Shown in pieces: positions 7,204 through 19,310 of a stretch of 64,000 bases of DNA (its first letter is position 1; the number at the start of each line of letters is the position of its first letter). A program made the position numbers and the translations under genes. The notes under the pieces are model-generated. The model was not told where the DNA came from and made no database searches. It saw only the letters and a program-made list of their open reading frames with translations. The stretch spans positions 558,001-622,000 of the forward strand of contig JBCAQO010000007.1 in NCBI GenBank assembly GCA_039111635.1, written 5' to 3'. The stretch is from Heterobasidion occidentale. Its lineage: Eukaryota > Basidiomycota > Agaricomycetes > Russulales > Bondarzewiaceae.

Positions 7204-7932
7204 TCAGTCCCCCTCCCAATTCTGCGCCCTGTACTCCATCCAGCGCTGATAATCCTCCTCCACGGCGTCGTAGACGACCCTCCAATCGCGACACGCCCTC
7301 TCCCGCTGCGCCCCCGCCGCGCCCGCCTCCGCGCTCTCGACCCACCCGGGCTCCTCGAGCGTCGCGTCCGCCTCACACAGCACGTGCTGCCTCACATAAT
7401 TCATGCAATGCTGCAAATGCGCCTCGCCCGGCGCGCCCCCGGCGTCCGCGAGCGCGATCGCGCGCGCGAAGAGGTAGACGCAGTGCGCGGCGTGGGACAT
7501 GGAGAGCGCGAAGATGCGGCGGCGCGGGCCGAGGCGGACGTAGCCGAGCTGGCGCGGGAGGGACGCGAGCCAGCGCGGGAGGGCGGCGGGGGTCGGGGGG
7601 TAGCGCGTGGAGGGCTCGAGGGTGTAGTTCACTAGCGGGAGGGCGGAGAGGATGGGGAGGGTGGCGGGGAAGGAGTCGCCGAGGTAGGTGGGCTCGGGCT
7701 CTGTCGTCGTGGCGGGAGGAGCGGGTTAGATTGGGTTAGTGGGAGGGACGGGTGGGCGGGACTCGCGGGTGGCTTGGGCGGTGGCGGTGTGCCGGTGGTG
7801 GTGGTTGTGGTTGAGGAGGGTGAGGGCGATGAGGACGGCGTTGGCGAGTGTGAGCAGGGCGAGGACGAGCTTGCTGCAGCGCACGGGCACGGGCACGCCG
7901 CGGAACGATGGACGATGATCGCGCGCGGCCAT
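7204..7932 (-). CDS. UstYa/DUF3328 family oxidase-like protein (copy 1)
   Basis: Two exons fit exactly: 7750-7932 and 7204-7698, with a 51-base intron (GT at 7749, AG at 7700-7699) that contains the branch-point-like CTAAC. The product is 225 residues. It begins MAARDHRPSFRG and has one membrane segment at about residues 20-40 (SKLVLALLTLANAVLIALTL). The lumenal part follows, with the DUF3328 signature: an HAAHC motif, about 25 residues later HLQHCMNYVRQHVLC, and near the C-terminus ACRDWRVVYDAVEEDY. Both HxxHC motifs are intact. UstYa-type proteins are copper-dependent oxidases or cyclases, best known for crosslinking dikaritin peptides such as ustiloxin. The gene lies 6.5 kb from a repeat-peptide precursor gene and about 8.2 kb from a second DUF3328 copy, which supports a peptide-modifying role. 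The substrate is inferred. Confidence 0.88.
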
Positions 7933-8995
7933 GAGAGGGATGCGCGCAACGAAGCTGGCCCGTCTATCTATGAGCGTTGGATGCACACGTGCGAGATGCG
8001 GTGCGGCGTTCGTGCCCCTCGAGGGAGGCGGCTGGACCCTGGAGGCTCCCTTCGAGACACGCATCACATCAGAGGCCACCGCAGCCGTGATGCCCAGTCA
8101 AAATGATGAGAAGCAGCCTTCGACGGAGCCTGTTTGGCGCCCACCCCAGTGTCTTTATCCTCATCGAGCACCGACGATCCTTCCAATCTGCATATACGTT
8201 CAACCCCTCTGTCCCGATCCCCATGGGCACATCCCCATAAGCACGTATGAGGTCCGTAGAATCCGCCTAGTAGTTGAGCAGAATTGATGATGAGGGCACA
8301 AAAAGGTGTCTCTCGTGACATGGGACAGTGCAACCACAGGACCGCTGTAGTAGTCGCCCTCGGTAAAAACGAAGTGGGCAAGCATCTTACGGGTACTGCC
8401 CAGCTTTGAACAGCATGCAGCCGGCTGGGCGCACTCGTCCTGACGCTCTTCCCATTCCACTGTACAGTAACTGCAGTATATCTAGCTACTCTTCGGCCCA
8501 ATCGCTCTCCCGTTTTTTTACCTCCCCAAGGCAATCACTAACTAACCCACAGGCTTCACATCTCTCACTCGTGCAAGCAAGCAAGCATCATACCCAATCG
8601 AGCCTGTTCCCTCACACAGAGTCCTTTGTTTTGTAATGTCCAACATAGTATACAATGACCCTGCTCAGACAACAAACATGATTTCATAAATAAAATAAAA
8701 TAAAACACGCTGCGGAAACGGCTCGCCGATGCCCAGGCTTTCGACGTTCGTCAGCTATGACGACAAAAGAGCAAGACAAAAGACGGCAGACGAGCCTAAC
8801 CGTCTGATTGGCTAAAGCGACCGCCAAACCGGCAGAACGAGCTCACAGACTGACGATAGGGAGCGTGGGGCTTACACAAGAGGGAAGGAGTTGCAGAAAA
8901 AGCCAAAGACGAGAGACGTGTTTGCGATTCCTTGACACAAAGGTCGCCAGATAGGAAGGACGAAAAACGAAACGGACCCAGGCCACGTCGGCGAG
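7933..8995. other. Intergenic, no gene recognised
   Basis: This is the promoter side of the UstYa-like gene and the downstream side of the decayed trypsin-like gene. An AATAAA-rich run lies at about 8686-8704. No coding family is recognised on either strand. Confidence 0.55.
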
Positions 8996-11004
8996 GAATT
9001 CTCGAAGGGTTGTCAAAGCACGAATCCGCACGGGGAACTGTGCCCTGACGAGGTCCCAGACCCACTCGAAGGGAGTCGCGAACGCGATGTCGGGGCCGCC
9101 CGCCGCGCCCGCGAGCAGCGCCACAAACTCGCCGCGGGCGGAGACGACGCGAGATCCAGGACCGCCTCTGTGGGGAGACGGCGCCGCGTCGTGCTCGTGA
9201 GAAAGGATGGGCACCTCGAGCGACGCTGGATTGCCGGGGGGGAAGTGCCTGCGGGCGAGGGACACGAACCTGGTGAGCGTGCCGACGGCGGTGTTGGTAG
9301 CGCAGCCGCGACGGATGCGAGGGCCTTGGAGGTTCGAGGTGGGGGTGGGGTTGGTGAGCTGATCGGCGGTGAGCACGCCTTTGAGGGTAAGGAGACCGTC
9401 GTCGGGGTGCTTGAACTCGGACGGGACGCCGACACGCTCGCACATCGAGGCTTTGAGCTTCGAAGGGGACACCTCCGGACCTGGAAGAGAGACGTACGTC
9501 CCAGATCAGCGGCGTTCAATGAGAGCAGACGGGCGCCGCGCCGAGGCTGAGGACGTTGCCCAGCATGTGCTTGAACTTCTCCTTGTACAGCTCGATGACG
9601 CACAGGTCGCGGGTGTAGCAGCGGGGAGCAACACCGGCGCCGATGGGGGGCGCCCAGCGGACGAACCCAATCGCTCGGCCCTTGGACCTGCTCCACCTCT
9701 TCTTGACGTCGACAAAGAACTTCTCGAGGTTGTCAATCTTGGTGCGCGTCTTGGCAAGCGCGGCCTCGTTCTCGTGCAGCTTGGTCTGCGACGCGTGGAC
9801 GTCGATTCCATCCCGCACCCTAGTTCTGAGCGTGTTGATTTTCCTCTTGAGAGGCTCGACCGAGTCGATGTGCGTGTCGATGAGGGCCGGATGGAGGTCA
9901 GGTAGTTTGCGAACACGCGCGCGCCCGTCACAAGGACCTCCTTTTTAGGCGCAGATTCTAACGAGGGGCTAGAGTCAGAAAAGCTCATAGATTCGCAGGG
10001 GCGTCAAGCGAAAACGCACTGTGGTACTCATACAACTCGTTGTCCCCGTTGGGCAAGAAGACGTTGCGACGGACGGTGATGGCATAGAGCTTGTCGCCGA
10101 CGCGGAAGTAGGGACCAAGGGTGCCCTGCACAGCAGTCCTACGCCCAGCAATGGGCAGACTGAGGGAAACAGAGACATCGTCGATGGTGTCCTCGAGAGG
10201 GTCGCCGTCTTCCACGGGGCAGAAAAGGGCCGGACCGTGACCGCGCAAGGTCTTGTAGACCGACTCGCGATAGGCGATATCGACGTCCTGGACCTGAGCG
10301 AGTCGAGCAAGGCGCGGATGTCCGTGGACGACTCGTGTGCAGCGGCGCCGGTGAGAGGCTCGGGCAGAACGCCAATCCAGATGGTAGCGTAGTGACGTTC
10401 TCCGTCCTCGACGGGCTGGATGGGTGGAATATCATCGTAGGTGAGGTCCTCCTCTTCCTTGGCATCATCGTTGTCGTCGTCGTCGTCCTCCTCCTCCTCG
10501 ATCTCCTGGTCCGCCGTCTTGTTAAGCCACGTGAAACGAACGAAATCAACAGACGATTGGTTGAGTGGCCTCACAACCTTGGAACGAACAACCATCAAGA
10601 AACCGTTGCGCAACGCAAAGGCCGCGCACCTAGTCGCGAACCGCGTCCCACATTCCATCCTGACCAAACTCATGACTATCCAGAACAGCAACAACCCTCA
10701 TGAGGCGCGTATACGCCTCAGGGCCCCAGGGCTCCTCGAACTTATTGTCAAAGGTCCTATAAACGAGCCTGGGCCCACACAGGCGTAGTAGACGCCCGCC
10801 TCCATCTTGGGCACTTCGTAGGGGGCGCATTCGACGGCGGCGGCGCCGAGGACGCTGTCGCCGCCGGACGACAGAAGATATTCGTCGGAGCCACCGCTCG
10901 CGCGAGAGGCCCAGGCGGCGGTCACGCGCGCTTTGGCGATCGAACTCTAGAGTCTGGACGTATTCCTTGAGGTTGCGCTCGACGGGAACACCATCACCGT
11001 CCAC
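8996..11004 (-). pseudogene. Decayed member of a basidiomycete trypsin-like uncharacterised family
   Basis: Pieces of one protein occur in order but in shifting frames. They are EYVQTLEFDRQSARDRRLG (about 10960), ASGGSDEYLLSSGGDSV and GVYYACVGPGSFIG (another frame, about 10790-10890), EEPWGPEAYTRLMRV (back in the first frame), ATIWIGVLPEPLTG, then after a further shift VQDVDIAYRESVYKTLRGHG and GTLGPYFRVGDKLYAITVRR. Next come APKKEVLVTGARVF, a coiled-coil-like stretch (KLHENEAALAKTRTKIDNLE), GFVRWAPPIGAGVAP and, after an intron near 9483-9550, GPEVSPSKLKAS to GEFVALLAGAAGG and FEWVWDLVRAQFP. The order matches a large agaricomycete family I recall, which ends in a trypsin-like half with an RGGDSGS serine motif. 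Here that site reads RGGPGSRV, so the catalytic serine context is gone. At least four frame changes, including a non-triplet deletion, make this a pseudogene rather than one base-calling error. Confidence 0.75.
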
Positions 11005-11356
11005 TATTCACGCATACGAGCAGATCAGTACAGACGAAGAGCAAACAAGATGTACAATAAATAAATAAACTCGCTGTTGGGGTTCAGGGGGGCAGACATT
11101 ATAGCAAGGTAGCAGCACTGAGGTAGCCTCAGGCTGGTAGGCCGCACCGCAAGCGGCAAACGCGACTACATCACGTGATCCGGGGGTGGCGCCCGCACAC
11201 GAAACGCTACAGGTCCAGGAACATTCAAACCACACGGCATATCAACATCGCGCGCACGGACCGCCCCGCATGATGCCAAGACTGCGCGCGCGCCCGCATG
11301 GCGGCAGGCAGCAGCGGCCAAGACGTCTCCCGCTCCCCGGAGGGGCCCAGCCAGCA
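11005..11356. other. Intergenic, likely 3' UTR and promoter
   Basis: Between the 3' end of the seven-TM gene and the 5' end of the decayed trypsin-like gene, both on the minus strand. A run of AAATAAATAAA lies at about 11057-11068. Nothing else is recognised. Confidence 0.5.
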
Positions 11357-12729
11357 TCACACGCCGTCATCCCGCTCCCGCCCCCCCACACTCCCCGAGC
11401 TCGGCCGCCCGCTCGACACCGTCTCCCCGCCGCTGCGCGCCTTCTCGTCCGCGCCCACGTGCGCCTTGGGCTCGAGGCCGACGCTGACGCGCACGCCGCC
11501 CGCCGCCTCGTCGTCGTCGCTGCTGAGGCTGTGCGTGCGGCCGGTGGTGGTGGCGGTGGTCGAGCGCGCGCGCGGGCGGCGCGAGTGGAAGTCGATGCTG
11601 GTGAGCGGCGCGGTGCCGGTCTTGGAGTCCCACGCGACGCGCGTCGCGACTCTGTATATGATGAGCATCGGCGCGATGATCTGCACGTGCGGCGGCGCGA
11701 TCAGAGGGAGGAAGGGGGAAGGGGGGGCGGGAGGCGGCGGCGGGCGCACCTGCACCTGCGAGAGCACGGGCAGGAATATGTTCGAGACGTGGCTCTTGGC
11801 GCCGTACGGCGCGATGAACAGCAGCGAGCTGACGGCGTACAGCAGCGAGCTCTCGACCATCATCGCGGCGATGCCCGCGTAGGGGACGGAGTGCGCGTGC
11901 TGTGCGCCGAAGGCGCGGCGCAGCGCGGCGCGGTAGGATAGGAGGCGGGCGGCGATGAGGAGCGTGAGGAGGATGTTGAGCGCGGTGGAGAGCGAGAAGT
12001 AGGGGACGCCGAAGTTGACGCTCGTCTCGGTCCAGAAGTTGGCTGTTGGGCGGGAGATCTGGAAGAGGAAGATGGCGCCCATCGCTGTGGGGGGGGTCCG
12101 CGCGTGAGTGGGCGGGCGGACGGACGATTGCGAAAGGAGGAGAGGCGTACACAGCGAGCCGAGGTACATCAGTATTGGGAGCGCGAGGATGTAGAGCTGG
12201 AGGTGGAAGATGACGATGCAGCGGTACAGCTATTCTGGCCCTCTCAGCTTGCTCGCTCTCAGAAAGAAAGCCGCCGTGGGCGATGGACCCACCAAGAACC
12301 CATCCGCGAGCCACCCGGCGACGATCGAGCACGCGTTCGGGACGACGGTGATCGGGGACGAGTACTGCGAGAGCGAGTACGCGGTGGGCCCGCCGGGGAA
12401 CTCGCGGTTGTCGACGAACATGAGCTGGAGCGAGCGTGTGTTCATGCCGATGAAGGTCGTGCCGAGCGCGAAGATGGTGAAGGTGTAGACGAGGAGAATC
12501 CCGTCGAGCCGCAGGCGGGTGCGCTTGTAGTTTTGGAGGAGGGTGGACATCGTCTGGAGGAAGATGACGAAGGACACGCCTGGTCCGGGTCAGGGATGGA
12601 ATGCTAGCGGGAACGAGAGAGAGCCGAGGGCGCACCGAAGGCGATCTGGGAGAGAGAGTCGCCGATGAGGACTGCGCGCTCCAGCCAGAGTCTGTCTGCG
12701 GGCAGCTGGGGGGCGTAGGGATTCGACAT
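11357..12729 (-). CDS. Seven-TM-type fungal membrane protein, unknown function
   Basis: Five exons fit in phase: 12636-12729, 12293-12579, 12151-12229, 11750-12084 and 11357-11680, giving 372 residues. The start MSNPYAPQLPADRL at 12729 is the only good ATG before the first membrane segment. Several hydrophobic helices follow: GVSFVIFLQTMSTLL, LDGILLVYTFTIFALG, LYRCIVIFHLQLYILALPIL, FSLSTALNILLTLLIAARLL and ESSLLYAVSSLLFIAP. An extracellular-like loop FVDNREFPGGPTAY lies between the second and third. The W/LYRC motif after a helix and the hydrophilic Ser-rich C-tail (SSDDDEAAGG, SGRPSSGSVGG) are typical of the expanded basidiomycete seven-TM families without assigned ligands. It lies inside the UstYa/repeat-peptide region. 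A role as transporter or sensor for the peptide is only a guess from position. Confidence 0.85.
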
Positions 12730-13079
12730 GCTGGTCCCGGGCGAGGCGAGAGCGAGGGCGGTCTGTGGACGATCAGCGAGGGGAGCTGGTGTAATATGTA
12801 GCCAAGGGGCGGTGTAGACCCTCTTGTCGTCACACTGATACTGCTACTTACATGGTGGGTTTGGGTTCCGGCATGGAGGACTGCAAACGAAGGTCCGCTG
12901 ATGTCTGATCTGGCATCTCCCGATCCGATGATGCGATCAAGCCAGTCCGGAGCCCAGAAGGCTTCTAATCGCCGGGCGCCCATGAGTCGCCCACGCGGCG
13001 CTGAACCCCCTCCATCACGCCCGTACTACTTATCAGCGCGCGTCTCTATCCCACGAACAACCCCCAACGCAGCGCAGCC
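12730..13079. promoter_or_regulatory. Divergent promoter region
   Basis: A 350-base region between the seven-TM gene (minus) and the alpha/beta hydrolase (plus). It must contain both promoters. No clear TATA box or operator-like repeat was picked out. Confidence 0.45.
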
Positions 13080-14092
13080 ATGGCGTCCCCACCGATCCAC
13101 GAAGGCGAGGCCCCCTTCACCGTCGACGGCGAGACCTTCTCCACCTACTACAAGCTCCTCGGCGACCTCTCCGCCTCCCCCCAGCCCCCTCTCGTCGTCC
13201 TCCACGGCGGCCCGGGCGTCTCGCACGACTACCTCCTCCCACTCGCCGACCTCGCCCGCCCCGCCGACTCCGCCCCCGCGATCCCCGTCCTCTTCTACGA
13301 CCAGCTCGGCACCGCCCGCTCCACCCACCTCCCTCCAAACCCCCCTCCTTCTGGTCCATCGCCCTCTTCGTCGCAGAGCTCGAGAGCCTCCTGGCCCACC
13401 TCGGCATCAGCGCGCGCCCGTTCGACATCCTCGGGCACTCCTGGGGCGGCATCCTCGCCGCCGAGTTCGCAGTCCGCCGCCAGCCCCCGGCGCTCCGCCG
13501 CCTCGTCCTCGCCGACACGCTCGCGTCCGCGAAGCTGCGCAACGAGGCCGGCGTGAAGCTGCGCAAGGGGCTCCCGGAGGACGTGCAGGAGGTCCTGCGC
13601 CGCCACGAGGAGGCGGGCACGACCCGCGACCCGGAGTACAAGCAGGCGATGCTCGTCTTTTACAAGAAGCACCTGTGCAGGATCCAGCCGTTCCCCGAGG
13701 AGCTGCTCTACTCGTTCAAGCAGCCCGAGCTCGACGACACCGTGCTCACCAACATGTGCGCGCCGCTCGTCCCCTCGTCCCGGCCGTCGAGCGCTGACTG
13801 CCTGACTGACTGACTGACTGACTGTGTTCGTCGACGGCCCCCGCCCGCGCGCAGGCGCAAGAACGGCCTCGAGGACGAGTGGGACATCACGTCCCGCATC
13901 CCGCTCATCCGCGCGCCGACGCTCCTGCTCAACGGCGAGCACGACTTCGAGACCGACGACGTCTGCGCGCCCTTCTTCCGCGCGCTCGACAAGGTCAAGT
14001 GGGTCAAGTTCGCGCACTCGGCGCACATGCCGCACTGGGAGGAGCGCGAGCGCTACATGCGCGTCGTCGGCGCGTTCCTAAGGGACGAGTAG
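13080..14092 (+). CDS. Alpha/beta hydrolase, proline iminopeptidase / L-amino-acid amidase type (one-base frameshift)
   Basis: Starts MASPPIHEGEAPFTVDGETF at 13080. It shows LVVLHGGPGVSHDYLL (oxyanion region), YDQLGTARST, then FDILGHSWGGILAAEF with the nucleophile Ser codon at 13439-13441. LLNGEHDFETDD supplies the acidic residue and FAHSAHMPHWEERERY the catalytic His. The order fits peptidase family S33-like fungal proteins that release N-terminal proline or act on amino-acid amides. An intron at 13756-13854 joins LTNM to RKNGLEDEWDI. The stop is at 14090-14092. The frame breaks at the C6 run 13340-13345: upstream reads STHLPPNPP, downstream SFWSIALFVAEL only in the next frame. One extra C would reconcile them and I see no splice site there. 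It is either a base-calling error or a recent loss of function. It lies 0.34 kb from the convergent repeat-peptide gene, so peptide trimming is a possible role. Confidence 0.83.
13795..13824 (+). repeat. (TGAC)n tetranucleotide array inside the hydrolase intron
   Basis: About seven CTGAC/TGAC units in tandem, 30-60 bases upstream of the intron's 3' splice site at 13854. Each unit matches the fungal branch-point consensus CTRAC/CTRAY. Confidence 0.85.
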
Positions 14093-14435
14093 GTGTATAC
14101 GGGTGTTGGGTGCGTTGGGTGTGCTTGTGTAGCTTGTAGGACGGCGGCGCGGGCTGATGGGCGCAGAGGAAACCGAGGGAGAAGTGTATGATAACAAGAG
14201 CCACGAAAAACAGCAAATAAAACGCATTATAATCCCTCCCCCACCTCTCCACCGACTCAATCATGCATGCATACAGTTCGGAGTCCGTGGTAACACGATA
14301 TCCTCTCATCTCCCCACTATCGGCAGCAAGCCATGCACTCGACCTGCAATCCACGCGACCATTCAGCTCAGGAACTTGCCGCCAACGCAAGCACTTACTA
14401 AGGTGCGAACGACGGTAAGCCAAGCCACGAGCGCA
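14093..14435. other. Convergent intergenic region
   Basis: The shared 3' side of the hydrolase (plus) and the repeat-peptide precursor gene (minus). No gene recognised. Confidence 0.6.
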
Positions 14436-14650
14436 TCAGAAATCCATGAGCGCCTTCAAATCAGCCTCCTCGCCACGACGGCGGAAGTCCATCAGCGTCT
14501 TCAGGTCGGCCTCCTCGCCGCGACGGCGGAAATCCATCAGCGCCTTCAAGTCCGCCTCCTCGCCGCGCCGGAAATCCATCAGCGTCTTGAGGTCGGCCTC
14601 CTCGCCACGACGGCGGAAGTCCATGAGCGCTTTCAGGTCCGCGTCTTCCG
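14436..14650 (-). repeat. In-frame tandem repeat encoding five 12-residue peptide units
   Basis: Five coding units of 42-45 bases, including the Arg spacers, lie head to tail. They differ mainly at synonymous sites and at one A/T residue. The second spacer has one Arg codon fewer (RR rather than RRR), so unit length varies by exactly one codon and the frame is kept. Confidence 0.9.
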
Positions 14651-14811
14651 CTGATGCAGGCGCGGCGCGCGGTCAGTCAGTCAGTCAGTCAGTCATTCGG
14701 TCGGTCGGTCGTCGACGGCGTGAGGTAAATGTGGGGCTTACACGGGATGGCCGCGGCGCGGGCGGCGACGACAAACGTCAGGGCGGAGAAGAGGAAGCCG
14801 CGGACGCGCAT
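14436..14811 (-). CDS. Secreted tandem-repeat peptide precursor with Kex2-type sites, candidate RiPP precursor
   Basis: Two exons (14742-14811 and 14436-14650) with a GTAAGC donor and CAG acceptor give a 94-residue protein. Residues 1-21 (MRVRGFLFSALTFVVAARAAA) look like a signal peptide. After IPS come five copies of a 12-residue unit ending LMDF. The first is EDADLKALMDF. The next four are GEEADLK-T/A-LMDF, with position 8 alternating A, T, A, T, A. Units are separated by RRR, RR, RRR and RRR, classic Kex2-type dibasic sites, and the last unit ends at the stop codon. There is nothing else in the mature part. This is the architecture of Kex2-processed repeat proteins and of UstA-like dikaritin precursors. 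Two UstYa-family genes in the same neighbourhood, one transcribed divergently from it, support a RiPP precursor. The units contain no Tyr, Trp or Cys, so crosslinking would have to use Phe, Met, Lys or aliphatic residues, or the peptide may stay linear. The function is unknown; this is not a known named product. Confidence 0.85.
14671..14694 (-). repeat. (CTGA)n tetranucleotide array inside the precursor intron
   Basis: About five TCAG units on the plus strand read as CTGACTGAC on the coding (minus) strand. They lie 20-43 bases upstream of the 3' splice site at 14651. This is the same tetranucleotide, in the same sense relative to transcription, as in the hydrolase intron 0.85 kb away. Confidence 0.85.
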
Positions 14812-16165
14812 GGTGCGTGCGATTCTATTAACGAGCGGCGAACGTGGAGTGTATGATGGGTGTGGAGGCCTTCAAGTAGGGGTTTGCGAGTCGCGGAGAC
14901 TCCCTGATGGCGAGGTCTTATATTACCCCCCTGCGCCTGCCCCACCTGCTGCCCCCTTCGGTGCCCCTTGGCTGCAGCAGGTGGGCGGTGGGCCGGCCGC
15001 CTGGTGGCCGTGCATCAGAGTTGCAGTTCCCATCGCCTCCTTTCGAATTTTGAATTTTGAATCTTGGGTTTCGAATTTCACGCGGACGCAGCGAGGCGGT
15101 GGACTGGCAGTGGCAGAGCGGGCTTCTGCAATAAAGAGGATCAGACTGGATCCTGCTGGATCAGATGAGGAGCGCGCGAGCTAGCGAGCCCGGGGGTGGG
15201 GTTCGAGTCGCGGGATGCCCAGACCTCGTGGGTGATCCAATGGACCTCGATGGACGTGCCTCCGTGCGCATCAGACCCTCGATCGTGTCCCAGTACGCTC
15301 CAGTATCACCGCCACGACTCGCGCGGCTGGACCACGTACCGCAATGTACTGTATCAGTCAACTTCGCCCAAGGAGCTCGAGAAGGGCGCACCGCAGTGCC
15401 TGTCAAAAAAAAACCCCCCCCGCGGACGGTTTTCGGCGGCGCTGTGAACGAGCAGCGCGAGGCGGTCTGGGGCCGGCTCGCGTTTCTCGTGACTCTTGCT
15501 TCCATTGCTACGAGCGCCCGTGGTCGCTCGTAGTTCGCTCGTGGGGCGCGCGATCGCAGACGATCGCCCGTGGGCGCTGGCGCTTGTTCGCGCCAAGGCC
15601 ACTGCGAGCGGCTGCATCTGGCAATCTCGGCGGCAAACAGCGGCAAGCCAGCTGTTGGGAGTCTGTTGGGCCGTGCTGAGCCTCGCCGATCTGCTTCCTG
15701 CCTGTGTCACGGCGGTGCGCCTCAAAGTCAGCCGGTCAGTCTGATGGCTGTACGATCTGATAAGACGTCCCTCGCTGCGATGCGATCAACCCGCAGTTCG
15801 TGCACATATCTTAGCGAGGACGACGACGATTGCTTTTGTAGGCCTGCGCTGACCTGTGGCAGTCTTGCTGATGCGTCATTGATGCTCCTGGTTCTCCATC
15901 AACTGGCCAGTGCACCCAGGCGCATCTTTCTCTGTCGCTATCTCGGCCCCCTCTGATCCGGCGGATTGTCGTTGCGGTGCTGCACCGTGCTGTACCTCTC
16001 CGCTCGGTGATATCTAAGGGTCTGCTATTATCACTGCATCATACTGGCTGGTAGGTAGGTCTTGCACATTGTGCGTCTTTTGATGATCAGACACCCTGAC
16101 CCAGGGGCGCATTAGGACAGTCTGAGAGGACAGCTCCTCGACGACACGCCGGGTCTCACACAAAA
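14812..16165. other. 1.35-kb divergent promoter region of precursor and UstYa copy 2
   Basis: No gene family is recognised in this stretch. It holds AT-rich direct repeats (GAATTTTGAATTTTGAATC near 15045-15062), a cluster of GGATC repeats near 15138-15165 and an A9-C8 homopolymer junction near 15405-15422. Being shared by the repeat-peptide gene (minus) and the second UstYa-like gene (plus), it probably carries their common regulatory sites. Confidence 0.5.
14915..14926 (-). promoter_or_regulatory. TATA-like box upstream of the peptide precursor
   Basis: On the minus strand the sequence reads GGTAATATAAGACC, about 105-110 bases before the precursor ATG. It is the only clear TATA-like stretch in an otherwise GC-rich upstream region. 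Confidence 0.4.
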
Positions 16166-16792
16166 ATGCAGACACGTTGGTATGCCGCCCTCGCCCTCGC
16201 GTCCACGCTCCTGCTAGGCCTCACGCTGTGGGGATACCACGAACCTGGCCCCAGTCAACCATCCTACAGTGCGTCCACTTTAGCATTGTCCTCGCTCACA
16301 TGCCCTCATCGGCGCCGCCCCATGCTCATCTTGTCGACAGCATACATCGGCGACGACTACCCCCTGCAGTGGCCGCTCCCCGACGCCGAGCAGGTCTACA
16401 TGTACCCAGAAGACACGCACCGCTACGCCCTCAACACGCCCTCCGGCGCCGCCGAATGGCGCGCGCTCATCCCTCCCTCAAACGGCACCGTGCGCCTCGG
16501 CCCGCGCGGGCGCGCGTTCACAGTCGCGATGTTCCACCAGCTCCAGTGCCTCGACGTCATCCGCGGCGCGATGGCGGCCCCCGTCGCGCGCGGCGACGCG
16601 CGCCGCGCGCGCGTGCGGGACCACTGCCTGGACTACATGCGGCAGACGGTGCTCTGCCACGCGCACACGGACCTCGAGTCCGTGCGCTCCGACGTGGGGC
16701 CCAAGATCGCGGATCTGACGCGGTCGGTGTACAGCTGTCGGGATTGGCGCGTGCTGTACGATGCGATGGATGCAGGCGAGGCGGCGCGGTGA
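16166..16792 (+). CDS. UstYa/DUF3328 family protein (copy 2), with altered histidine motifs
   Basis: Exons 16166-16268 and 16341-16792, with a 72-base intron that happens to be open in frame. The protein begins MQTRWYAALALASTLLLGL, a membrane or signal anchor. It continues YIGDDYPLQWPLPDAEQVYM, VRLGPRGRAFTVAMFHQLQC, DHCLDYMRQTVLC and YSCRDWRVLYDAMDAGEAA, giving about 184 residues. The layout is that of UstYa: an N-terminal anchor, two His/Cys motifs about 25-30 residues apart and a C-terminal C-R-D-W. The family motifs HxxHC appear as HQLQC and VRDHC, so one His of each pair is replaced. Copy 1 keeps both. Pairs of UstYa-like proteins (UstYa and UstYb) work together in ustiloxin formation, so a divergent partner is not unusual. 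It is transcribed divergently from the repeat-peptide gene. Confidence 0.86.
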   Translation: MQTRWYAALALASTLLLGLTLWGYHEPGPSQPSYSASTLALSSLTCPHRRRPMLILSTAYIGDDYPLQWPLPDAEQVYMYPEDTHRYALNTPSGAAEWRALIPPSNGTVRLGPRGRAFTVAMFHQLQCLDVIRGAMAAPVARGDARRARVRDHCLDYMRQTVLCHAHTDLESVRSDVGPKIADLTRSVYSCRDWRVLYDAMDAGEAAR

Positions 16793-17049: not shown

Positions 17050-19310
17050 CTAATAGCGGGCCACGCCGTTCTGCTCGACCTTCGGATAGACGCTTTTCGG
17101 GATGGGCTGGTTCAGGGTGGCATCGGTCAGGAGTTTGATGTTCTCTGGAGTATACGGAGCGTAACGTGGGGAGAGGATAGGCTCCGATCTGATAGTTGTG
17201 GGTGAAAACGTCAGCGAAGTAAAGATGATAAGAGACATTGCTTACTCCGCAGGGACGTCGATCGAGGCTCGCAAGTGCGTGAAGCCGTCGTAGGTGTATT
17301 TCAAGATCTGGTATCCCTCTGTGGAAATGTAATTATGGCGCGTGAGAAATGGGTATCAACGTTGGCCTCGCAGGCGGTTGGCAGAAAGAACGTACGGCCA
17401 GATTCTCCGATGCCTGTAAATGGAATCTCGTTCACTGTAGGGATCGACCGTCAACAAAAGTGATCGCGAGGATGACGATGGAATGCGCTTGCCAGAGAGC
17501 TGTTGTATTGTGTCGTTGAAGATGAGCGTTCCGCTCCGCGTCCTGTCGATGACTGTACGAATGGAGGAGCCGTCAGTCGACGGTCGCTCAAAGGTTTAGT
17601 TCTACTCACGCGCTTGTTTTACTTTCGGGTCGTTTGTGAATGCGTAGAGCACAAGAGGATGAGGCCTGCGACGTGAACAATCAGAGAAATAGATGCTGCA
17701 GAACAATACCGGCATACCGTTTGTTAATCAGCTCGATACCTTCGTTGATGTCATCAACAAGGACGATCGGGAACAAAGGTCCAAAGATCTCCCTTACGAA
17801 ACACTACTCATGAACAACCTTCGCACTGCGCGTGAATAGTAGCACAACGCACCCCTCCATCAGAGAGTCATCATCCTCTACATCGGCGTACACCGTCGGT
17901 TCGATTCTGTTGCGCCCATCTGTCTTCCCTCCGATGACAGCCTTTGCCCGCGTCCGCTTCTGAAGGTCCAGCAGCCTGTCATAATGGAGTTTGGATACGA
18001 TGCTGCCGAAACTCTCCGACTTGAGCGCGCCCTCTGGATAGAATGTGTCGTACGCGTCTTGGAGAGCCGCCACGAACTCGTCCTTAGCAGAGCGCGGAAG
18101 AATGACGTAGTCCGGACAAATGCAGATCTGCGCGTCAACAAGGTCAACATCATGGATGTTTGGACGTTCGGGAAGCGAAATTTGGTGAGATTGGATGGTT
18201 CACGCACCTGGCCAGCGTTGGTGGTCTTTCCGAAGAACGCGCGCTTGGCTGCGAGCTTGAGGTCACAGTTTGCATCGACGAGCACGGGCGACTTTCCGCC
18301 GAGTTCGAGGGTGACCGGCGTCAAATGCTTCGCCGCAGCAGCTGAGACGATCCTCGCCACACTCCCGTTCCCGGTGTAGAAGACTGCGCCCCATCACGGC
18401 CATCATAACCAGTTGAGCACGGTGACAGAATCGCTGCAAACGCGAAAATATGACACACTGTGGTCCCACTTGAGCTTCAGCAGATGTGAAACTTCTGGCA
18501 CACTGCCGTTGACGACGCGAAACGCGGATTGGTCCAGGTATTTGGGGAGAAGCGAGGCGAGTAGGGAGGAGTAGGTTGGGCAGATCTCAGAGGGTTTAAT
18601 GACGGCTGGGCAACCCGCCGCGATGGCGCCCATAAGAGGTTGCAAAGATAGGATCATGGGATAATTCCATGGCCTGAACAATATGATGAGTGAAAAACGC
18701 TCGCGAGCAGAAGCCACGAATGGACGAAAGGGACACAAGACGGCGATACATAATAAGGCTGCAGAGGAAGACCCTTTACTCGATGCAACCACTTCCCGAG
18801 AGAAGGCAAGGGGTCGCCTCGGGCATAGCCCGAGGTTCCCTCGTCCCTCAAGACAATAGGACCGTCGCTCGCACGCTCGTCACAGAAGTAGAACTCACGC
18901 GATGATAAGAACCACGCCCTTCGGCGTCTTGTGAAGCGTGGGTGCCCATGGCCGCTGCCACTCTGGGACGGGCACGGGCTCTGGCTTCGCCCACTCGTCC
19001 AGCGACTGCGCGCTGATGATGCTGCGCTCCACGAGGGGCCCGATCTCGCCCAGGATCGCCTCCATGGCGGGCTTCCCGAGGTCGGCGTGCATCGAGGCGG
19101 CGAAAGCGTCTGAGTTCTCCTGCGCCATCCGCGCGAGCTGGTACAGCTGGTGCTTGCGCCATTCGAGCGGCCGCGCGATCCCGTCTCGGAACGTCTTTTG
19201 CAGCGTCTCGTAGATCTGTTGGGCACAAAACGTCAGCGGGATGCGGGGTAAAATAGGAGTTCGGGGCGTACCGAGTCTAGTTCAGCGATGGGAGTGTATT
19301 GTAGAGACAT
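17050..19310 (-). CDS. Aldehyde dehydrogenase, class 3 / fatty-aldehyde type
   Basis: NAD(P)-dependent oxidation of aldehydes to acids. Start [13 protein letters not shown] (19272-19310, 39-base first exon), then [21 protein letters not shown]. Further exons carry [67 protein letters not shown] (active-site Glu) and [19 protein letters not shown], where a Cys just after GQ across an intron is the nucleophile. They are followed by [32 protein letters not shown] and a C-terminal exon ending [10 protein letters not shown]. The [16 protein letters not shown] and late C-terminal order matches ALDH3-type enzymes of usual length. About eight short introns are present and I saw no disruption. It is convergent with UstYa copy 2. 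Whether it belongs to the peptide cluster or is unrelated metabolism cannot be told from sequence. Confidence 0.9.

Follow-up and report, generated by a model that had tools for sequence, protein, structure and literature searches.

Does the stretch of Heterobasidion occidentale DNA considered here encode a working pathway for an oxidised, Kex2-released peptide, and which of its genes would take part? The window, i.e., the whole 64-kb stretch that was analysed, corresponds to C7:558001-622000 of a 45-Mb fungal assembly of 159 contigs. Between 7.2 and 16.8 kb, a Kex2-type repeat precursor is accompanied by two UstYa/DUF3328 genes (UstYa1 and UstYa2), an S33-type hydrolase and a protein with seven transmembrane segments (7TM protein), all of which were observed as claimed in an earlier reading of the sequence (the original prediction). 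We consider it fairly probable that this is a working peptide-biosynthesis cluster, the precursor of which would be cut by Kex2 and oxidised by an unequal UstYa pair with UstYa1 as its catalytic member. Gene structure, selection, co-duplication, motif loss and co-location are established for the cluster; by analogy with known systems, the peptide would be oxidised and would hence be a ribosomally synthesized and post-translationally modified peptide (RiPP) in the strict sense. The genes stand in the following order:

7204..7932, minus strand: UstYa1, a complete UstYa/DUF3328 oxidase of 225 amino acids (exons 7932-7750 and 7698-7204)
8800-11010 (approximate), minus strand: dispersed-family gene separating UstYa1 from the 7TM gene (genome search)
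11357..12729 (approximate), minus strand: membrane protein with seven hydrophobic segments (hand-made exon model; hydropathy)
13080..14092, plus strand: alpha/beta hydrolase of the proline iminopeptidase family (S33), 304 amino acids (hand-made exon model)
14436..14811, minus strand: Kex2-type repeat precursor of 94 amino acids (sequence and splice; GT-AG intron 14741-14651)
16166..16792, plus strand: UstYa2, a degenerate UstYa protein of 184 amino acids (exons 16166-16268 and 16341-16792)

The precursor starts with a signal-like N-terminus (MRVRGFLFSALTFVVAARAAA; read from the sequence), which is also kept in a duplicate of the cluster and in the search match P0001. Five units follow, with RR or RRR between them, the first being SEDADLKALMDF and the others GEEADLK-T/A-LMDF with T and A in alternation. 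Thus, the five-unit signal-peptide precursor that had been proposed was borne out as a spliced protein, and so was its Tyr-free core ending in LMDF, as tyrosine occurs in none of the five units. All five end in Phe. The calculated [M+H]+ values are 1368.635 for GEEADLKTLMDF, 1338.625 for GEEADLKALMDF and 1354.620 for SEDADLKALMDF.

The codon pattern of the units argues for a translated gene. Across 11 aligned codons of the five units, nine changes are synonymous and two non-synonymous, giving a ratio of non-synonymous to synonymous changes per site (pN/pS) of 0.07, and eight of the ten variable nucleotide columns fall on codon position 3. When the whole 64-kb window was scanned for similar dibasic-separated units, at least three in one frame, only the precursor array and its antisense reading were found. 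The repeat might be a chance or decaying open frame, as an antisense frame is open across it too. However, pN/pS was about 1.0 in one of the two stop-free antisense frames and 0.22 in the other, the low number of non-synonymous changes in the window units was not reached in any of 20,000 simulated sets, and the intron, the signal-like N-terminus and the unit pattern are conserved in the duplicate and likewise in P0001. A chance or decaying frame is therefore extremely improbable, and the artefact explanation was ruled out by the codon test together with the duplicate cluster.

P0001, found with the precursor as query, comprises 65 amino acids with three units, and its N-terminus is joined to the repeats exactly at the predicted splice point. 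P0002, a relative of UstYa2, is continuous across the intron position of UstYa2; P0003, P0005, P0009 and P0010 from the same UstYa2 search appear to start inside the intron. As neither P0001 nor P0002 is interrupted by an intron at the corresponding position, both probably derive from spliced RNA of a close relative, suggesting expression of precursor as well as UstYa2 in that relative.

A second copy of the cluster lies on the same contig:

C7:717179-722502, about 142 kb from the window cluster: duplicate cluster (U2', 7TM relic, hydrolase relic, precursor', U1')

U2' is 72% identical to UstYa2 and U1' 58% identical to UstYa1. Precursor' has its intron at the same place and contains 15 units, mostly DDEDLEKTLSF (calculated [M+H]+ 1311.595) or ADEDLEKTLSF, with RR separators; one of them contains Tyr. 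Over the 20 units of both precursors, Phe is last without exception, and the residue six positions before it is Leu in 19 units and Ile in the remaining one. Of the 7TM and hydrolase copies only remains were found, with stops and frame breaks. For the exon-2 parts, the ratio of non-synonymous to synonymous substitution rates (dN/dS) between window and duplicate was about 0.18 for UstYa2 and about 0.27 for UstYa1, both being point estimates. Because both UstYa genes are constrained and the two neighbours carry stops, the precursor and both UstYa genes were retained after the duplication, while hydrolase and 7TM gene decayed. Moreover, UstYa2 is about as constrained as UstYa1, which suggests that it serves a function. 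The positions of UstYa1 and UstYa2 are swapped between the two clusters; 7TM gene, hydrolase and precursor keep their order and strand.

Scans for repeat precursors took in nine UstYa neighbourhoods of the genome. A second precursor family is represented by a KR-separated precursor at C14:279.5-279.9k (279482-279942) and by a related one at C14:330.2-331.2k (330185-331210), found by a search with the former. All in-frame units of the C14:279.5k precursor contain Tyr (VPHRYGISSEEALD and variants). The pattern of the family is VPH-x-YGI..EE..-KR, and most units begin with VP, a Ste13-like dipeptide; the YGI stretch resembles the Y-x-I cores known from ustiloxin and phomopsin. The C14:279.5k precursor is 5.9 kb away from a group of three UstYa genes (C14:269-274k), and the C14:330.2k precursor is 10.6 kb away from the UstYa pair C14:316-320k. 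Their neighbourhoods are diverged duplicates, whose aligned UstYa and flanking blocks are 77-87% identical at the DNA level, and both precursors read as interrupted frames in this assembly. One further gene was found in this setting:

C14:323830-324849, minus strand: tyrosinase-family frame (27.9 bits in the genome search and 30.1 bits on the open frame; cut-off 22.6)

It is one of three tyrosinase matches in the genome and lies at C14:324k between the UstYa pair C14:316-320k and its precursor; the other two are far from any UstYa gene found. Its counterpart is absent from the sister neighbourhood C14:264-290k as searched by tblastn, and none of the three matches of the genome search is near the window cluster (C7:565-575k) or its duplicate (C7:717-723k). 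Ustiloxins and phomopsins require a tyrosinase (Umemura 2020, PMC7329392; excerpt). The Tyr-containing family thus has the classical dikaritin set in one copy, and no tyrosinase match lies near the Tyr-free family.

The original prediction had listed two UstYa/DUF3328 genes. Both do match PF11807 (51.7 bits for UstYa1 and 53.3 bits for UstYa2; cut-off 25), but they are not equivalent, as the one at 16166-16792 lacks two of the four copper-ligand His. UstYa1 carries the motifs HAAHC and HLQHC, i.e., all four His and both Cys (HHCHHC), behind an N-terminal hydrophobic anchor. In UstYa2, the motifs read HQLQC and VRDHC (HQCVHC): the second His of motif 1 (His2) and the first His of motif 2 (His3) are absent, and both Cys are kept. 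The PF11807 genome search gave 19 matches, counted as 17 genes, 12 with all four motif His and five without. When 15 database relatives were added, 17 of the 32 sequences were of the HHCHHC type and 15 of the H[Q/R]C[V/L/I/Y]HC type, the database share being biased by the query (10 of 11 degenerate with UstYa2, 0 of 4 with UstYa1). His2 and His3 are always lost together, no sequence showing a single loss, and His1, His4 and both Cys are kept in all 32.

The best tree of these sequences requires two changes to the degenerate type. One degenerate group has 13 members of the UstYa2 type from several orders, including the gene at C7:2422, and the other consists of the pair C14:269k and C14:317k, which groups with the complete genes next to it. 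That the degenerate type arose only once was rejected by the approximately unbiased test (p 0.0064; 0.0008 with the two lost-His columns masked). On this tree, which has long branches and on which the placement of C7:2422 is doubtful, the same double loss appears to have arisen at least twice. Each of the five degenerate genes of this genome lies within 9 kb of a complete one, both C14 groups (269-274k and 316-320k) containing a complete and a degenerate member, and a precursor is present within 11 kb in four of the five groups. The fifth is C7:2417-2424k, where none was found in the 20 kb scanned.

What would the loss mean for the protein? In CctR, a DUF3328 oxidase, the motif HxxHC(x)nHxxHC lies in paired helices and binds two Cu per monomer at a homodimer interface, and Ala mutants of the conserved motif residues are inactive (PMC12435403). 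In such a helix hairpin, His2 would lie opposite His3, and His1 opposite His4. As UstYa2 has lost both residues of one facing pair, it would be short of one whole copper site of two, and it is probably not catalytic alone. Its structure model is weak (mean predicted local distance difference test score, pLDDT, 68) and supports only that two motif helices, formed by residues 61-78 and 86-101, lie next to each other; the AlphaFold model of UstYa1 (pLDDT 43) was too weak to use.

Alternatively, UstYa2 could be a full enzyme alone, with Gln or other ligands or a single copper, and not a partner of UstYa1. Its low dN/dS and the retention of His1, His4 and both Cys fit such a role, as does the presence of UstYa2-like proteins in Bondarzewia, Phellopilus, Sanghuangporus and Hydnomerulius, none of which had a UstYa1-like protein among the matches listed. 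The inactivity of the CctR mutants speaks against it, and so does the proximity of all five degenerate genes to a complete one, so that we judge an independent enzyme unlikely. A literature search on unequal UstYa pairs found no paper; it covered only part of the literature, and novelty is thus not proven.

Taken together, the cluster would work as follows. First, the precursor would enter the secretory pathway, where Kex2 would cut at RR/RRR, as its sequence and the known processing of Kex2-processed repeat proteins (KEPs) suggest. Second, a Kex1-type carboxypeptidase would trim the basic ends, leaving five Tyr-free peptides of about 12 residues ending in Phe. Third, the membrane-anchored UstYa pair would oxidise these peptides in the secretory pathway, with UstYa1, which has all four copper-ligand His, as the putative catalytic subunit and UstYa2 as its conserved partner (non-catalytic or half-site), most likely in a heterodimer. 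With less confidence, the likeliest chemistry may be, in analogy to victorin (the cluster of which has UstYa content as well), a C-H oxidation or cross-link at the invariant C-terminal Phe or at the Leu that is conserved six residues ahead of it. The proline-iminopeptidase-like hydrolase and the 7TM protein would belong to the same kind of cluster and would have been lost in one copy.

Several observations weigh against this pathway. No repeat precursor was found at C7:2417-2424k or at C14:360-364k (18 kb scanned). Both structure models are weak; a fold search with the UstYa2 model gave 399 matches at E<=10, none of them at E<=0.001, and a sequence search for solved UstYa relatives gave three, the best at E 0.16, which were taken as chance. 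Dentipellis sp. KUC8613 encodes its UstYa1-like and UstYa2-like proteins on different contigs (417,588 and 158,860 bp), and the pair is unlinked there unless the proteins are not orthologues. No UstYa1 relative of Bondarzewia was among the matches listed in the protein search. Finally, KEP peptides detected so far in agaricomycetes (four species) are linear or minimally modified (PMC9769878; excerpt).

The last point also favours a simpler explanation, according to which the precursor yields plain linear secreted peptides, the UstYa proteins modify some other, unseen substrate and the neighbourhood is merely tolerated. UstYa groups with no detected precursor do exist in this genome, and the core contains no Tyr, compared with Tyr in 65.6% of the repeats of DUF3328-linked KEPs (PMC7329392; excerpt). 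However, two precursor families with no evident similarity to each other have each been duplicated together with UstYa genes, and one copy retains its precursor along with both UstYa genes next to two decayed neighbours. We therefore regard purely linear products as rather improbable and favour oxidation by the unequal UstYa pair.

Among the groups with no precursor found, C7:2417192-2426600 comprises three UstYa genes, one of them degenerate (HQLRC), plus a 7TM gene, and C14:359821-366302 combines two complete UstYa genes, a 7TM gene and a hydrolase in one group, the precursor of which may be non-repetitive or absent.

Do the hydrolase and the 7TM protein belong to the cluster? The hydrolase exceeds the curated cut-off of the subfamily-level proline iminopeptidase model TIGR01250 (179.8 bits versus 167.65), and its best matches of solved structure are proline iminopeptidases. 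At E<=0.001, three hydrolase loci were found in the genome, all inside UstYa clusters, and a TIGR01250 genome search added only weak matches (33.8 bits or less) at three other places. The membrane protein shows seven hydropathy peaks in the hand-made exon model and no Pfam match up to E 10. At E<=0.001, the window 7TM query returned four loci in 45 Mb, all adjoining UstYa genes, namely the window gene, the relic in the duplicate, C14:361-362k between two UstYa genes and C7:2426k; other members as query returned three, those with no clear decay, and these counts are lower bounds. Two weak 7TM-like matches on C9 and C6 (E 0.002 and 0.004) lie away from UstYa genes. By contrast, the 7TM family DUF6533 has 60 matches, 58 of them remote from UstYa genes, and the two close to a UstYa gene are both near C10:2041k. 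The DUF6533 genes form a dense expansion at C12:1157945-1478360. At first, hydrolase and 7TM protein were held to be bystanders in view of their decay in the duplicate. This was dropped since the loci at E<=0.001 all adjoin UstYa genes; for the same reason, both belong to this class of cluster, though both have decayed in one copy.

Two functions were considered for the 7TM protein and set aside. A cytochrome b561-like electron donor to the oxidase is not favoured, as no His is common to the membrane segments of three partly aligned copies (by eye). A mating-pheromone receptor was rejected, as the STE3 genes lie elsewhere: the STE3 genome search gave 19 matches, all at C7:1.175-1.198 Mb, and did not return the 7TM locus. 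These 19 matches form one 22-kb group, C7:1175596-1197518, presumably the B mating-type locus. A literature search on a 7TM gene with DUF3328/UstYa, which covered only part of the literature, found no paper.

As an extension of the favoured pathway, the peptide, modified or linear, could act as a hormone-like signal, with the 7TM protein as its receptor and the hydrolase destroying or trimming it. The confinement of the 7TM and hydrolase loci at E<=0.001 to UstYa surroundings, set against DUF6533, nearly all matches of which lie elsewhere, is in line with this idea. So is the topology of the seven segments, in which KRTRLR after segment 1, RAALRR after segment 5 and a basic tail suggest that the N-terminus is outside and the C-terminus inside (by eye). 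Le Marquer 2019 speculated on cognate G protein-coupled receptors for basidiomycete KEPs with a STE13 signature (PMC6339444; excerpt). On the other side, the duplicate's 7TM gene decayed while its precursor was kept, the 7TM protein has no similarity to STE3 or any Pfam receptor, no precursor was found near the 7TM genes C14:361k and C7:2426k, and the weak matches on C9 and C6 are not near UstYa genes. Moreover, the window units have no STE13 signature (XA/XP), and only the VP of the second family provides one. Finally, this 7TM family, of the PGGP type, is common in mushroom genomes. Overall, we judge a signalling function unlikely. Distinctly improbable is its fullest form, a self-contained mushroom peptide communication cassette of precursor, unequal copper-oxidase pair, dedicated 7TM receptor and signal-ending peptidase, of which the duplicate would have kept signal and maturation and lost receptor and peptidase. 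In it, one oxidase subunit would be active, and its partner, evolved at least twice, would have lost one copper site. The UstYa-linked 7TM family offers a concrete candidate for the receptors postulated by Le Marquer 2019 for basidiomycete KEPs (PMC6339444; excerpt).

Regarding the setting of the cluster, the dispersed-family gene at 8800-11010 has 13 genome matches, two of which are its own exons, and is probably an insertion outside the cluster proper. Frames on the minus strand at about 17050-18390, just past UstYa2, resemble aldehyde dehydrogenase (by eye) and probably mark the cluster edge. The protein searches named relatives of UstYa2 in Bondarzewia mesenterica (63%), Phellopilus nigrolimitatus, Dentipellis sp., Sanghuangporus vaninii, Hydnomerulius pinastri and Mycena venus, and relatives of UstYa1 in two Dentipellis. 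All are Agaricomycetes (Russulales, Hymenochaetales, Boletales and Agaricales), in agreement with the basidiomycete origin that had been proposed.

How far does this go beyond what was known? As predicted originally, a Kex2-type repeat precursor occurs with UstYa genes in a basidiomycete, where both were co-duplicated and kept, and a second family shows the same linkage. The claim that the linkage is new did not stand, since 103 of 1680 basidiomycete KEPs have DUF3328 neighbours (Umemura 2020, PMC7329392; excerpt). The linkage is thus already known in basidiomycetes, and the window cluster is a genuine, conserved Kex2-peptide and UstYa cluster. In Basidiomycota, cyclisation of KEPs might be almost absent, as Umemura 2020 also suggests (PMC7329392; excerpt). 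In Pleurotus ostreatus, six of 16 UstYa-like genes are developmentally expressed (PMC8893723; excerpt). In the present genome, two precursor families were each duplicated along with UstYa genes, one with a Tyr core and, in one copy, a tyrosinase, the other with neither, so that KEP cyclisation in a basidiomycete can be tested directly with named peptides and masses. The recurrent pairing of a complete UstYa protein with one that has lost the same two ligands suggests a catalytic-plus-partner rule for why these oxidases are often paired. Of all parts of the cluster, this unequal pair and the 7TM family linked to UstYa genes most deserve further study.

Among known systems, the dikaritins (ustiloxins, phomopsins and asperipin-2a), products of which are reported from ascomycetes (PMC9233826 among the sources; excerpt), resemble the window cluster in that a precursor with a signal-like N-terminus and dibasic repeats adjoins UstYa genes and a peptidase-family hydrolase. 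The mature dikaritins carry an oxidative cross-link between side chains, classically by way of Tyr. They differ in that the present cluster is from a basidiomycete, has a Tyr-free core and no tyrosinase match near it or its duplicate, includes a UstYa protein with half of the copper-ligand His missing and belongs with UstYa genes that a 7TM family accompanies. Victorin of Cochliobolus victoriae provides the precedent for a Tyr-free core, being cyclised through Phe and Leu (PMC9233826; excerpt); the C-terminal Phe and the internal Leu of the window units could likewise be linked in the absence of Tyr, whereas the core here is longer (about 12 residues) and acidic, comes from another taxon and is known from genes alone. 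The basidiomycete DUF3328-linked KEPs share both gene linkage and phylum with the window cluster, and degenerate UstYa partners and a linked 7TM gene are not mentioned in the parts of that source drawn on here (PMC7329392; excerpt). UstYa1 resembles the DUF3328 copper oxidases CctR, ApnU and AprY in its complete HxxHC(x)nHxxHC motif and its single N-terminal hydrophobic anchor. The basidiomycete STE3 receptors share seven membrane segments and the phylum with the window 7TM protein, which has no STE3 match, and the STE3 loci lie far from the cluster. CctR acts as a homodimer on a cyclic nonribosomal peptide (PMC12435403), whereas an unequal pair acting on a Kex2-released peptide is predicted here.

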